From assembly GCA_030064795.1 (NCBI GenBank), contig JASJEI010000299.1:1-28253 (forward strand): DNA of 28,253 bases. The letters run 5' to 3'. A model generated the notes under the pieces. It did no database searches. It was not told the DNA's origin and saw only the letters and a list, made by a program, of their open reading frames with translations. Source of the DNA: Pleurocapsa sp. MO_226.B13 (lineage in GTDB: Bacteria; Cyanobacteriota; Cyanobacteriia; Cyanobacteriales; Xenococcaceae). Both the position numbers and the translations under genes were made by a program. Below are positions 15,889 through 21,892 of the stretch, piece after piece. Within the stretch, counting starts at the first letter, position 1. Each line of letters starts with the position of its first letter.

Positions 15889-18147
15889 TTACTCCTCTTC
15901 CCAATCACTGTTACTGGCTTCACTACCACCACCAACGGTAACGAGGTCGATTTGTTGACGATAGTAGTCAACGCTTTTAACTTCTACTTCCACGCGATCG
16001 CCCAAACGATAGGCGGTACGATTTTTTCTGCCTACCAGACAGCTATTACGGGAACGATATTCATACCAGTCATCTTTGAGAGAACTAACGTGAACTAAGC
16101 CTTCGACGAGTAAGTCTTCAATTTCGACAAAGAAGCCATAGGACTGTACCCCTGTAATTAGACCTTCAAAGATTTTACCCGTACGTTCTTTCATTTGTTC
16201 CGCTTTTTTCAAACCAGCCAGGTCTTTTTCGGCATCTTCGGCTTGTTTTTCGCGGTCATTGAGGAAAGGCAACATAGTTTGAATTTCAGTTTCTATTTCC
16301 TCTTGGATGTTAGGAGGTAAAACCTTCCAGTTAATTTGTCCGTGACAACTGCTACTAGTCAGGTCTACTCCGTGCTTAGTTCGGCTATGACGGCGATCGC
16401 GTCCGTGTTCAAATACTGCTTTTAAGATGCGTTGAATCACGAGGTCGATATATCTCTGACCGGGAGAAAGACAGTGAGTATAGCCATCGTCATAAGCCAA
16501 GCCAAAGTGTTTGCCTGGTTCGGTAAGATACTTGACTGGTTTAAAAGTGCTTTGTAGCAAATAGTTTAAGACCATTGCTGCCGATGAGGTAGAAAACTGC
16601 TCGGTTAGTCGTTGATAGTCTTGAGAGGTAACGCTTTCTTCTGCGTTAACATCTAGTTCCAAGCCTAAATTATTACCTAGCTTAAGTAAGTCTTCTAATT
16701 CTTCTATGTCTGGTTCGGCTTGAGTGCAATATATGCCTGGCAATTCTAGAGCCTGTAGATGTTCGGCAACTACTTTCCCTGCTAAAATCGTTAACTCCGC
16801 TAGCATTGAATGTACGGGCAAACTGCTGAGATTGAGAATTGTTCCTACTCGTCCCTCATCTTTGTAGAGACTATTGATTTCTGGAGTACTAACTTCTAAA
16901 CCACCCCGTTGTAGACGTTGAGCTTTAACTAGCGGACTCAGGGTAAAAAATAGCTCTTTAAGCAGGGGAACGAGTTTGGCATACTTTTTGCCTGGTTTTT
17001 TCTCGTCGCCGATCAGTGCTTGAGTTTCTTCATAGGTCAATTGATGATCGACAGAAATTACCGTTGGTGCAATTGTATATTCGACAATATTACCTTGCGG
17101 ATCGATAGTGATAGTTACGGAGATTGCCAAACGGTTTTTGCCTGGAATTAACGAGCAAAGTTTACTCACCTTTTCAGGAAACAAAGGCAAGACTTTTTTG
17201 CGGAGATTAACTGCTGTACCGCGCTTGCGGGCAATGCGGTCTAAAACGCTATCGGTTTCTATATAGTGAGCTACGTCTGTGATGTGAATCCCTAACTGCC
17301 AATTGTCTGTCTCGGTTTTTTCTAAACTAAAAGCATTTTCGATCCAAGAAGTATTTTCTAAATTAGATTCTGCTTCGATCGAAAAAGTCAGCAGTTCGCG
17401 TAGGTCTTGACGACGTTTAATTTCAGCTGCGGGAATCCGCGCGGTGGGTAGTTGAGCGGTAGCAGCGATCGCCTTTTCAGGAAATTCTTGAGGTAGATCG
17501 TGTTTGCAAGAAACAATATCGACATCCTCTGCTTCTTCGGCATCACTTCCCAGAACTTTGGTGACTTTTCCTAAAGGGGGATGTTGCCCCAAAGGATAAC
17601 GTAATACCGATACATGAACTAGATGTTCTAAAGCCGCCTGGAGGTCTTGACCGTTTTCTTTAAGGTCTAATTCAAATAAAAGACGGTCATCCAAAGGTAT
17701 GGCTCGATATCGTTCTTCTTTGGTAGTGACTGTAGCCAATAAAGAAGGATTCGCCCGTTCTAAAATTAATTTTACTTCCCCTTCAGGAGAGCGACGACGA
17801 CTGCCTTCTTTAACAATCCTGACAAAAACGCGATCGCCATTCCAGGCATTACTTAGATGACTTTCTCTGACATAGATATCATCTGCATTTTCTTCATCTT
17901 GAATCGCAAAGCAAAATCCCTTACTAGAACATCTTAATTTAGCTTCTACTATATCTTCCTCGTAGACACGGCGATATTTACCCCTTTCTTTGACCAAAAC
18001 GCCAATTTTCTCTAGGGCATCTAAAGTAATCTGTAATTTGAGCATGCTCTCTTGGTCTTCACAACCAAGTTTCTTTTCGAGATTTTTGCCCGCGACTAAT
18101 TTATCGTCAACGAACTGAGCGAGTAGTGTGGCGATTGAAAATTCCAT
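15889..18147 (-). CDS. RNase II/R-family protein with degenerate catalytic site (Zam-like)
   Basis: The 752-residue protein has the RNase R layout: an N-terminal winged-helix-like part (1-60), a cold-shock domain (about 65-125), an RNB domain (about 245-590) and a C-terminal S1 RNA-binding domain (about 655-735). The fold motifs are kept: G-I-H-I-T-D-V-A-H-Y-I, R-K-R-G-T-A-V-N-L, L-C-S-L-I-P-G-K-N-R-L, Q-R-G-G-L-E. The catalytic stretch, normally T-I-D-x4-6-D-x-D-D-A, reads S-I-E (256-258)...W-I-E-N-A (268-272), so the four aspartates become E258, W268, E270 and N271 by my alignment. The usual S-P-I-R-R-Y is S-P-G-Q-R-Y (561-566), losing the conserved arginine to Q564. I infer RNA binding without normal exonuclease activity. 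Cyanobacteria have an RNase II relative named Zam, linked to acetazolamide resistance; this may be its orthologue. Confidence 0.85.
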   Translation of the reverse strand: MEFSIATLLAQFVDDKLVAGKNLEKKLGCEDQESMLKLQITLDALEKIGVLVKERGKYRRVYEEDIVEAKLRCSSKGFCFAIQDEENADDIYVRESHLSNAWNGDRVFVRIVKEGSRRRSPEGEVKLILERANPSLLATVTTKEERYRAIPLDDRLLFELDLKENGQDLQAALEHLVHVSVLRYPLGQHPPLGKVTKVLGSDAEEAEDVDIVSCKHDLPQEFPEKAIAATAQLPTARIPAAEIKRRQDLRELLTFSIEAESNLENTSWIENAFSLEKTETDNWQLGIHITDVAHYIETDSVLDRIARKRGTAVNLRKKVLPLFPEKVSKLCSLIPGKNRLAISVTITIDPQGNIVEYTIAPTVISVDHQLTYEETQALIGDEKKPGKKYAKLVPLLKELFFTLSPLVKAQRLQRGGLEVSTPEINSLYKDEGRVGTILNLSSLPVHSMLAELTILAGKVVAEHLQALELPGIYCTQAEPDIEELEDLLKLGNNLGLELDVNAEESVTSQDYQRLTEQFSTSSAAMVLNYLLQSTFKPVKYLTEPGKHFGLAYDDGYTHCLSPGQRYIDLVIQRILKAVFEHGRDRRHSRTKHGVDLTSSSCHGQINWKVLPPNIQEEIETEIQTMLPFLNDREKQAEDAEKDLAGLKKAEQMKERTGKIFEGLITGVQSYGFFVEIEDLLVEGLVHVSSLKDDWYEYRSRNSCLVGRKNRTAYRLGDRVEVEVKSVDYYRQQIDLVTVGGGSEASNSDWEEE

Positions 18148-18735
18148 CTAAAAATTATCCTTATCCAATTTTAATTTAGTAACATACGACAGAAGCGAAG
18201 ATGACTATAGTAACTCGTATGATTTGTTTGCACTAGGTGCTTTTTTTCCCTTTGACCAGAGTATTCTGAGACGGAAACTACCTGTTTCGCGGTTTGGGTA
18301 TCCCTGGAATGGAAATTAAGGGCTTTGCTGTACAACAGAGATTGAGATAAACGACCGAGAAACTCTTTGGACTTGATACTCTAAATTTTTTTAGAGATGT
18401 TATTAGAGTTGTGAGCTATATAGTTCCCTAGCAACGGTTACAGAATACTTGGCTCCATAACGGCGTAATAATCTGTGACTCTAGGGGCAGGGCCAAAACA
18501 ATTAAGATGTACTAACTAGATATTTTTGCTCTCTGTAGTCTAATTGTTTTATCTCGTGTCGCTCGACCAAAAAATTGATGGTGAATCTGAGGAACGCAAA
18601 AATTACGAGCTAATTTATAGCCAATTTCAGTATCTATTGTAAATTCTCAATGCTTATTGGCAAATTTCTTTTGGCAAAAAAGCAATAAACAGTAAATTAA
18701 TACTAATCTATATACTAGAAATAAACTAAAAAAAG
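18148..18735. other. 588-bp spacer between divergent genes
   Basis: This is the longest gap in the window, between the RNase II-like gene and the 292-residue gene. It must hold both promoters. A TATACT hexamer at 18711-18716 could be a -10 element for the plus-strand gene. CTCTAAA-tttt-TTTAGAG (18379-18396) is a small A+T-rich hairpin. A 28-codon GTG frame at 18556-18642 looks protein-like but has no ribosome site. I see no RNA family that I can name. Confidence 0.45.
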
Positions 18736-19614
18736 ATGGTGCTAGCTAAATTTCGTCAACATTATCCTCAAGGAAGTTTGGTGGGTGAACTAGTTGATAT
18801 AGACAGAGGAACGTACATTGTCAAGGTTTCAATAGAAGTAGAAAATGTGGTTTTGGCTACTGGTTTAGCAGCAGCAGAGCGAGTAGAAACTGCCGAAGAT
18901 GCTGCCAGAGAAAGAGCGATCGCCGCTTTGGTTTTAGATCGCCATCAACCAGTTGTCCGAGAAAACCCTGTTGCTCTTGCCGACAGTGATACCCAGATTA
19001 ATCCTCCTCAAACTAAACCTCAAGCGACTGAATTGGTTTCAACCCTCGAAGAATCAATCCCAAAAGCTCACAATGGTAATGCTGATAATAATGCCGAGTT
19101 TATCGACTCAGAGCCAAAAGAGCTATCACCTATAGATTCTCCATCATACAGTGGAATCAACTCGGAATTTGCCAATTACCCAGAAGAAATAACAGTTCGA
19201 CCGAGTGTTTCGCCTACCCAGGTTTCAGACCCCGCTCTATCCCAGCCAGTTTTCGCGCCAGAAACTAAGCCAGAATCTCAGCCACAAATTGGAACTTCTA
19301 ACAGTGCGGGAAATTTATTTGAGGGAACATTAGACTCAGTAGTGGAAGAAAATAGCCCTATGGTTGAAAATGAAGCTGCGGTTCGGCAAAACTCGAATTC
19401 AGCGATCGCTCATGAGTCAACAGAAGCGATTGACTTTGATTTTAATGAAGTCAAACAAAAAACCGATCTAGAAATCAGACGACTGGGCTGGACAAAAGAC
19501 GAGGGACGAGAATTTCTCAAAAGCCGTTATGGTAAACGTAGCCGTCTTCATTTAACCGACCGACAACTGCTAGAATTTCTTCACTATCTAAAAAGTCAGC
19601 CCAACCCTAGTTAA
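18736..19614 (+). CDS. Cyanobacterial protein of unknown function with conserved ends
   Basis: The 292-residue protein has two conserved-looking ends joined by a disordered middle. The N-terminal 65 residues (Y-P-Q-G-S-L-V-G-E-L-V-D-I-D-R-G-T-Y-I-V-K-V...V-V-L-A-T-G-L-A-A-A-E-x-V-E-x-A-E-D-x-A-R-E-R-A-I-A-A-L) form a beta-beta-beta-helix pattern, roughly that seen in small nucleic-acid-binding or Rad52/ERF-like folds, though I cannot claim homology. Residues about 70-225 are Pro/Ser/Glu/Asn-rich. The C-terminus (D-L-E-I-R-R-L-G-W-T-K-D-E-G-R-E-F-L...Y-G-K-R-S-R-L-H-L-T-D-R-Q-L-L-E-F-L) is a short helical module I recall in cyanobacterial proteins. The function is unknown. Confidence 0.75.
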   Translation: MVLAKFRQHYPQGSLVGELVDIDRGTYIVKVSIEVENVVLATGLAAAERVETAEDAARERAIAALVLDRHQPVVRENPVALADSDTQINPPQTKPQATELVSTLEESIPKAHNGNADNNAEFIDSEPKELSPIDSPSYSGINSEFANYPEEITVRPSVSPTQVSDPALSQPVFAPETKPESQPQIGTSNSAGNLFEGTLDSVVEENSPMVENEAAVRQNSNSAIAHESTEAIDFDFNEVKQKTDLEIRRLGWTKDEGREFLKSRYGKRSRLHLTDRQLLEFLHYLKSQPNPS

Positions 19615-20239: not shown

Positions 20240-21892
20240 TTAATTATTTTCTGGTTTGGCTTCAAAAACAGGGCAATAGCCTTCGGGAATTACCTTGAAA
20301 CCATACAAAGGCGAGGCCGGATTCCAACAACGCCGATCGCTGTAATGTAAACAGCGGTTACAACAATCTAAATCGGAGGATAAGCGAGCTTGATTATTGG
20401 TGGTTAAGAGTTCTCGCTGAGATAATCCTCTAATTACTAATTCGTCCCCTTGCCAGCGAGCTTGAATAATGCCCGTATCGGCAAGATTTTTCCAGCGCGG
20501 ATCGCTACTGATGGTGTCGGGTAGATTTATGGCGATCGCACCAGCAATTTCATTTAGTTCTCCCTCGTAGTAAATAGGCTGGGGAGCTTTTGGCTGGACA
20601 AAGCGATCGCCAATGGGCAGTTTTACCAAGATTCCCTGCATAGGAGAATGAATTTGGTAACGGTTTCTTAGCTCTTCTAAGCTAGCTAGCTCCAGAAGAT
20701 AGTTGAGAGAACCATGGACGAAAATAACGTGCTGCGGTCGTAAATTGTGAATTAACTGGGTCGTATTGCGTCCATCGCTGTGTTCTGCCAATAGATAGGA
20801 TTCGATCGTTACGTTGGTTAAGTTTTGTAATAGATCTAAAGTTGAGCTATCTGGATCTAAAAATTTTTGGGGATGTTCTGCCAGTAACACCAGCCATTCT
20901 TCTGTTTCGGTGTTGAGATACTGCCAAAGATTACTACGATAATCTACTAAAAAAACTTTGGGCTTTTGGTTGGCGATCGAGGTGTCCCAGTTATCGAGCC
21001 TCATCATTCGAGGACAAATCCGCTCATCCCAAAATAGAGACTGATGTTTGGCGAAATTTTGCACCGATAAAGGGAATTGTGACAAAAGCTCTAGATAAGT
21101 ATCACAGGTAACTGCAACTAAATCATCAACCCAAATATCGAGATCTCTTCCCGTAAACTGATGATGAGAACGCAAGAGCTTGAGTATTTCTTGTCCCAAC
21201 CCAATAGGAGGAACGGGGAGCAAAACATTTTTGCCTCGAACTAAAGCACCATCGATCCGCTCCATCAACTGTTTTTCCTGAAGACGGCGATGGGGATGAC
21301 GGACCGTACCAAAACTACCTTCTAAAATGAGTACATCAGGTGCTAGTCCTCTGAGGTTTTCGATCGACATTCCTTCGACTAACTGAAAGTTAGAAACCGA
21401 AAAGTCTCCCGTGTACATTACTTTGTAGCTACGCTCTGGAGTGGTATAGGTAATTATAATCGCAGCAGCCCCAGGCAAGTGTCCCGCAGGTACTAGTTCG
21501 ATTTGCAAATCGGGGGCAATTGACCATGGCGATCGCCATAACAATATTTGACACCAATCGAGATTTTCAGCAATAGCTTCGCCAAGCCAATAAAACGGTA
21601 ATAATTTAGCGGTTACTTCGCTAGTATAGATTGGCAGTTCGGGAAAAGTACGATGTAATTGCCATAAACCCCGACAGTGATCTTCATGAGCATGAGAACA
21701 AAAAACAAGATCTGCTGGTGGCTGATTCTGCTTGGATAAAACTCCTAGATCTGCCAGACCACAATCGAGTAAAATACGGTATTTGCCAATTTGTAATAGT
21801 AAACAGACACCTTCATCTTCGTGACCTGCTCCATAAACAAAGCAGGACAAAGGCAGGGAACTAGATATAGTTTTTCCCTGTCTTTTTTTCAT
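20240..21892 (-). CDS. Beta-CASP metallo-beta-lactamase nuclease with a Cys-rich C-terminus
   Basis: The 550-residue protein is of the metallo-beta-lactamase/beta-CASP class, whose members (CPSF73, RNase J and relatives) cut or trim RNA with two zinc ions. Motifs in order are: S-H-A-H-E-D-H (H67, H69, D71, H72); A-G-H-L-P-G-A; M-Y-T-G-D-F-S; motif A at L-E-G-S-F-G (E191); P-V-P-P-I-G-L-G-Q-E-I-L; motif B at A-E-H-S-D-G (H371); and motif C at F-V-H-G-S (H393). All metal ligands seem present, so it should be active. The C-terminus adds a cysteine group, C510, C511, C514, C522 and C540, resembling an extra metal site. It is distinct from RNase J, which has another C-terminal domain. An RNA substrate is inferred from the family. 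Confidence 0.88.
   Translation of the reverse strand: MKKRQGKTISSSLPLSCFVYGAGHEDEGVCLLLQIGKYRILLDCGLADLGVLSKQNQPPADLVFCSHAHEDHCRGLWQLHRTFPELPIYTSEVTAKLLPFYWLGEAIAENLDWCQILLWRSPWSIAPDLQIELVPAGHLPGAAAIIITYTTPERSYKVMYTGDFSVSNFQLVEGMSIENLRGLAPDVLILEGSFGTVRHPHRRLQEKQLMERIDGALVRGKNVLLPVPPIGLGQEILKLLRSHHQFTGRDLDIWVDDLVAVTCDTYLELLSQFPLSVQNFAKHQSLFWDERICPRMMRLDNWDTSIANQKPKVFLVDYRSNLWQYLNTETEEWLVLLAEHPQKFLDPDSSTLDLLQNLTNVTIESYLLAEHSDGRNTTQLIHNLRPQHVIFVHGSLNYLLELASLEELRNRYQIHSPMQGILVKLPIGDRFVQPKAPQPIYYEGELNEIAGAIAINLPDTISSDPRWKNLADTGIIQARWQGDELVIRGLSQRELLTTNNQARLSSDLDCCNRCLHYSDRRCWNPASPLYGFKVIPEGYCPVFEAKPENN

Follow-up and report, generated by a model that had tools for sequence, protein, structure and literature searches.

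The gene at positions 15889 to 18147 on the minus strand of contig JASJEI010000299.1 from Pleurocapsa sp. MO_226.B13 (positions 1 to 28,253, analyzed at its full length of 28,253 nucleotides and here termed the window) is zam, and its product, the window protein, is orthologous to cyanobacterial Zam and represents it in the Pleurocapsales. Our analyses indicate that Zam is probably an ancient RNB protein of the RNase R type, kept by photosynthetic cyanobacteria to regulate RNA turnover without catalysis after loss of the RNase II/R metal site. The pseudo-exoribonuclease reading of Zam is well supported, yet it was already published in 2022 by Thomas et al. (PMC9145284), who placed Zam in a separate RNB clade and described its degenerate site, redox-active C73 and C79 pair and photosynthetic phenotypes. 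A limited literature search found no further paper on the mechanism of Zam, a negative that does not extend to several papers that mention zam, such as PMC9570166. The features of the gene that carry the argument are as follows.

15889..18147, minus strand: zam, RNB protein of RNase R type lacking the canonical active site, 752 amino acids (open reading frame, domains, site and position inside the Zam group)
17767..17940, minus strand: CSD1 (OB_RNB), first cold-shock domain, residues 70-127 (Pfam)
17911..17931, minus strand: C73-S-S-K-G-F-C79, redox cysteine pair described for Zam (sequence positions; function from PMC9145284)
17479..17661, minus strand: CSD2, second cold-shock domain, residues 163-223 (Pfam)
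16411..17412, minus strand: RNB domain, residues 246-579, 273.2 bits (Pfam)
17332..17382, minus strand: degenerate metal-site loop S-I-E-AESNLENTS-W-I-E-N-A, residues 256-272 (sequence and alignment)
16450..16467, minus strand: S-P-G-Q-R-Y, residues 561-566, with Gln at the catalytic Arg500 position (sequence and alignment)
15943..16185, minus strand: S1 domain, residues 655-735 (Pfam)

The reading frame opens with ATG, and Pfam gives its product the RNase R domain order OB_RNB, CSD2, RNB, S1; the predicted model has an RNase R-like fold. A sequence-only reading of this gene had held that the cold-shock, RNB and S1 domains were kept while the catalytic site was lost, and Pfam bears out the first part. 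The second part was also confirmed, as S-I-E, W-I-E-N-A and S-P-G-Q-R-Y begin exactly where that reading had put them, at residues 256, 268 and 561. In the alignment with the Escherichia coli enzymes, the D201, D207, D209 and D210 positions are occupied by E, W (in register, two residues before D209), E and N, respectively; in a second alignment a loop E takes the D207 column and D210 is still N. The D201–D209 spacing is 12 in the window protein and 8 in all 25 canonical rows (23 cyanobacterial RNB rows and two E. coli enzymes), so the insertion, first put at about four residues, is exactly four. The window protein therefore lacks the four metal-ligand acids of active RNase II/R exoribonucleases at their spacing of 8, and it also lacks the catalytic Arg500 of SPIRRY, which is Gln in SPGQRY. 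Its score of 486.7 bits falls below the cut-off of the NCBIfam RNase_R equivalog (597.85), and it narrowly passes that of the VacB/RNase II superfamily (370.6 versus 368.6 bits).

The suggestion that Zam might be the same family proved correct. The window protein has the two cold-shock domains, RNB domain and S1 domain of the Zam clade, with cysteines at exactly 73 and 79 in CSD1, and on a 78-row tree it stands beside Pleurocapsa (L001) within a group of 63 Zam rows that separates from RNase II, RNase R and Rnb with a branch support of 100 (a quick tree with long-branch warnings for the outside rows and no inferred root). It resembles the Zam proteins of Synechocystis PCC 6803 (sll1910) and Synechococcus PCC 7002 (PMC9145284) in domain order, degenerate RNB site and C73/C79 residue numbers, with no family-defining difference; its site residues (SIE, WIENA, SPGQRY) are its own and are lineage-variable. 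Unlike RNase R (TIGR02063; E. coli rnr; 8cdu), it has altered metal-binding acids and an altered catalytic Arg, and scores under the curated cut-off. An RNase R origin of Zam is suggested by hidden Markov model score and fold likeness, because the only references from outside the phylum were E. coli RNase R and RNase II, whose long branches join; tree placement of Zam relative to RNase R was rejected. Cyanobacterial Rnb (Sll1290-type RNase II) belongs to the same superfamily and occurs in the same genomes, but shares 24-28% identity with the window protein across the part that matches, is mostly about 670-710 residues long, has a canonical site and forms a separate tree group. The 2012 Synechocystis Rnb paper (PMC3293843) gives a single RNase II-family member for PCC 6803, whereas the review PMC10989914 gives sll1290 and sll1910.

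Among the 120 homologues listed, of 3193 found, identity is 75-100%, those with an organism name are cyanobacteria (including Pleurocapsa, Chondrocystis, Stanieria and Myxosarcina), and the public records name the protein ribonuclease R or VacB/RNase II exoribonuclease. The 80 species-genome loci (the best 80 of 327 relatives) encode proteins 54-90% identical to the window protein, and 79 carry cyanobacterial titles. The remaining one, L012, is a Zam of 66% identity on a contig titled Candidatus Gracilibacteria, for which a contaminated or mislabelled bin is likelier than a genuine Gracilibacteria gene. Some deep Zam rows are merely 27-37% identical to the window protein.

The loss extends to every Zam that we read. 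We compared 161 distinct Zam rows, comprising 114 distinct rows and the window protein from the first alignment and 46 more from the second, with identical sequences counted once. These are not a random draw: they come from the best 80 of 327 relatives and from 20 low-scoring regions out of 116 genomes, and a set of 192 genomes was read just where another analysis step took in a region. Three truncated copies (L106-L108), L169 and L175 (one piece of the split Zam of G285) and the broken or partial matches of G293, G294, G300, G304, G312, G340, G361, G363, G370, G388 and G402 were left out. Alignment places all four acids correctly in 0/161 Zam rows versus 23/23 other cyanobacterial RNB rows (with D or E at 207), and so the metal-site loss is not a sequencing slip. 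Both a Zam and a canonical RNB paralogue are present in 12/12 genomes reached via named Zam loci, and thus the comparison across genomes with a canonical enzyme also agrees with the sequence-only reading.

Individual site residues are retained to different degrees. D201, D209 and D210 are all kept in five Zam rows (L061, L068, L079, L109, L110), D209 and D210 in 14/161 and R500 in 45/161; E stands at the D209 position in 96/161. The canonical D201–D209 spacing of 8 is found in 7/161 Zams versus 25/25 canonical rows, and the length of the loop varies widely, to an extent that depends on the alignment. At D207 the first alignment sets non-acids in the commonest Zam patterns, whereas the second sets loop residues there, with D in 27/161 and E in 21/161. 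Because the two disagreed, we also used a gap-free register, in which the residue two before D209 is E in 12/161 Zams and D in none; no Zam has all four acids under either alignment or in this register. With a 106-row tree from which these columns had been left out, the minimum numbers of changes, which do not tell gain from loss, are 11 for R500, 7 for D209, 4 for D201 and 1 for D210. The claim of two independent losses was therefore too simple, with at least 11 changes at R500 and at least 7 at D209. Such piecemeal loss of several site residues is expected of drift at an already dead site, and thus fits activity that was already gone. C73 and C79 are both present in 153/161 Zams. Two further cysteines are also conserved in Zam, and no mention of them was found in the partial text of PMC9145284.

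17506-17508, minus strand: C214 in CSD2 (142/161 Zam rows)
18061-18063, minus strand: C29 (133/161 Zam rows)

Conservation in Zam is inverted, with the cold-shock and S1 domains kept and the site loop drifting. Among 115 Zams the mean majority-residue frequency is 0.873 in CSD1 (residues 65-128), 0.863 in S1 and 0.597 in RNB, falling to 0.486 in the site loop, the least conserved RNB stretch measured; in 15 Rnb rows (excluding the other RNB rows L105, L146, L148-L150 and L157-L159 and the truncated copies) the values are 0.807 for RNB and 0.867 for the site loop. This contrast is that of Thomas et al. (PMC9145284), repeated here on more sequences. The window zam is under purifying selection: its whole-gene ratio of nonsynonymous to synonymous substitution rates (dN/dS) is 0.042-0.047 against L001-L003, with 0.003-0.010 for the near-invariant S1 domain, values that are rough because synonymous sites are near saturation. 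The site loop, scorable against two relatives, gave 0.177 (L001) and 0.217 (L017); the whole-gene value against L017, 0.113, is inflated by a frame break near residue 580. The L017 Zam is one of a few with an interrupted frame. Thus, the contention that the protein reflects selection rather than decay holds as to selection; its other half, that selection acts for RNA binding or regulation, includes an RNA binding that we infer, because Thomas et al. obtained neither nuclease activity nor RNA binding from the aggregation-prone PCC 7002 protein.

Zam is found in most cyanobacteria sampled. A Zam-model match of E 1e-57 or better is present in 111/116 genomes of a class-wide sample whose completeness was not told. 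At the level of the phylum, 47/98 genomes have an RNB match. We looked for the photosystem II family PF00421 in 80 of those 98 genomes, namely the 51 that lack an RNB match and 29 of the 47 that have one, and found it in 0/51 versus 25/29. Each of the four RNB-bearing genomes without PF00421 has one such protein (L146, L148-L150), which is canonical and Rnb-like. Of the 25 photosystem II genomes, 23 yielded a Zam row, and the remaining two (G034, G072) hold an RNB frame of Zam length (793 residues), G034 with a Zam-model match as well. Zam and photosystem II thus co-occur in this sample, which shared ancestry alone can explain, because the genomes with neither are probably from other classes of the phylum. 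Separate from Zam, four loci (L105, L157, L158, L159) encode third RNB proteins with a canonical site and frames of 471-740 residues, with L105, L157 and L159 clustered in a tree group of their own.

Published work on Zam activity is in conflict. Thomas et al. (PMC9145284) purified the PCC 7002 protein, which was aggregation-prone, and observed neither nuclease nor RNA-binding activity on Rnb substrates. In that organism C73 and C79 were redox-responsive and needed in vivo, zam deletion lowered phycocyanin synthesis and shifted PSI:PSII, and deletion of PNPase or Rnb was lethal despite the presence of Zam. The same source ties zam to carbonic-anhydrase-inhibitor resistance, as the sequence-only reading had anticipated in naming tolerance as a lead; the resistance, however, arises from deletion of zam or insertion in it. 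By contrast, for the Anabaena protein Alr1240, to which Thomas et al. apply the name Zam, a review (PMC10989914) reports degradation restricted to unstructured RNA, along with binding and stimulation of RNase E. An alr1240-alr1241-alr1242 transcription unit is listed, without products, in PMC10287535. Downstream of zam in the Nostoc locus L060 come a ubiX gene, a 235-residue gene (LapA-like by eye, passing no family cut-off), a 577-residue gene, a shikimate-kinase-like gene and argB, an order compatible with that unit; the Rnb gene of the same genome (L094) lies downstream of genes that resemble L33 and S18 by eye. In PCC 7120 we take argB to be alr1245 and the S18 and L33 genes to be asl4451 and asl4452; on that numbering, alr1240 would be Zam and all4450 would be Rnb. 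The site of the L060 Zam reads TIAGVNGDSKVIENA, with APLRRY. The activity reported for Alr1240 is hard to square with this site, because D209N alone abolishes RNase II activity, with RNA binding unaffected (PMC3293843). The real question is the conflict between Alr1240 and the PCC 7002 protein, rather than the missing residues. Opposite alr1240-alr1241-alr1242, PMC10287535 (Table 2) lists TU00785, a non-coding antisense RNA that rises after nitrogen step-down (log2 3.56 for 9-0 and 2.96 for 24-0); if alr1240 is Zam, this RNA may reduce Zam under nitrogen stress.

Zam-group membership, loss of the canonical site in all Zams read, constraint on the OB folds and relaxed constraint on the dead site are observed. 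In the mechanism that we propose, RNA and/or RNase E would dock on CSD1, CSD2 and S1 of Zam, and a C73–C79 disulfide would switch this docking according to photosynthetic redox state; the redox switch acting on RNase E is the model of Thomas et al. (PMC9145284). Several points weigh against a non-catalytic regulator of this kind. The measured exonuclease activity that the sequence-only reading had named as contrary evidence has a published candidate in Alr1240 (PMC10989914), whose RNA degradation clashes with a dead site and on which the RNase E evidence rests. Purified PCC 7002 Zam showed no nuclease activity and bound no RNA, with its aggregation as a caveat (PMC9145284). Five of the 116 genomes (G322, G365, G380, G390, G397) have matches of Rnb strength only, and Zam matches are split or stop-bearing in G285, G293, G300, G370 and G388. 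Finally, C73 and C79 are absent in 8/161 rows, all from one deep-branching order, and so the redox model is not universal. In this order, that of G089 (L162-L178; 8 genomes), the pair is missing from all 8 rows read, in 7/7 genomes, and the RNB domain is further reduced in 6/7; the eighth genome, G285, has the split gene.

A possible, though clearly less favored, alternative is that Zam is a stand-alone RNA-binding protein that governs how selected mRNAs are translated or how stable they are, in the manner of Ssd1, its contact with RNase E being secondary or RNA-bridged. Ssd1, a fungal pseudonuclease (7am1), is like Zam an RNase II-family protein that lost catalysis and conserved its cold-shock domains, and Zam has the same combination of an RNase II fold without catalytic acids and conserved cold-shock domains. 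This is a likeness of kind and not of common descent: Ssd1 descends from Dis3L2 (PMC8097288), and its internal path is blocked, with RNA binding shifted to the surface (PMC8934651). However, PCC 7002 Zam bound none of the Rnb substrates (PMC9145284), and our literature search, made on partial texts, found no reported target RNA for Zam.

It is unlikely that Zam is still an exonuclease whose weak hydrolysis of single-stranded RNA relies on further acids in the enlarged loop (E258, E260, E270) or on a metal site that has moved elsewhere. The activity reported for Alr1240, the compatible gene order at L060, and the residual acids of some Zams, with E at the D209 position in 96 rows and both D209 and D210 in 14, speak for it. 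Against these stand the inactivating effect of D209N by itself, a site loop that is the least conserved part of RNB and varies widely in length, unlike an active site, and the inactivity of PCC 7002 Zam together with the lethality there of losing PNPase or Rnb (PMC9145284). That Zam is a decaying paralogue heading for loss is very improbable, and already disfavored for the window protein, as site-loop drift, the at least 11 changes at R500, broken matches in five genomes and the low identity of some deep rows are set against the low whole-gene dN/dS, the near-invariant S1 domain, retention in 111/116 genomes and the deletion phenotypes (PMC9145284).

Beside zam in the window lie a divergent gene and an intergenic region that recur in relatives.

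18736..19614, plus strand: slr1353-family protein, 292 amino acids, frequent divergent neighbour of zam (NF058667, 171.1 bits, cut-off 100)
18148..18735, no strand: intergenic region separating zam from the divergent slr1353-family gene, 588 bp, with short blocks conserved among close relatives (six-sequence alignment)

Of 63 loci, 45 have an slr1353-family gene divergent from zam and no more than 3 kb away. Its product is predicted to have a dsRBD-like or RAD52-like N-terminal domain (marginal score), a long disordered middle and a small helical C-terminal domain; it passes no Pfam family, and weak Pfam and PHROGs matches were not used. Four of the six aligned sequences resemble one another over roughly the final 60 bases ahead of the zam start codon, and the conserved blocks upstream of zam are a possible promoter and leader. 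An Rfam scan of the window gave no family reaching its gathering score. We consider it a speculative and rather improbable proposal that Zam and this neighbour work together as a redox-gated pair of proteins regulating RNA turnover in oxygenic cyanobacteria, with the dead RNase R positioning RNA or RNase E and the neighbour serving as flexible adaptor, and with some other input replacing the cysteine switch in the order without C73/C79. Downstream, pmbA/tldD and a DUF3153 gene were rejected as a conserved zam operon, since PmbA follows zam in 2/68 loci with enough sequence, and the genes downstream of zam, being lineage-variable, were rejected as a functional clue. Positions 20240-21892 (minus strand) encode a beta-CASP-like metallo-beta-lactamase protein that resembles the aCPSF1/RNase J families, far below their cut-offs; a match lies near zam in 3/80 loci (flanks up to 8 kb).

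As the pseudoenzyme idea itself has been known since 2022, the worth of these results is carried by the activity conflict and the lead from the slr1353-family neighbour. A gene present in most of the cyanobacterial genomes sampled, and recorded as ribonuclease R or VacB/RNase II exoribonuclease, is unlikely to encode a working exonuclease, and laboratories disagree: one reports that the Anabaena protein degrades RNA and activates RNase E, another that the PCC 7002 protein is without activity. Directly testable comparisons are offered by the inverted pattern of conservation, by the graded disappearance of site residues and by the lineage that lacks the redox cysteines. If Zam is an RNase E cofactor, it would provide a link from photosynthetic redox state to RNA decay.
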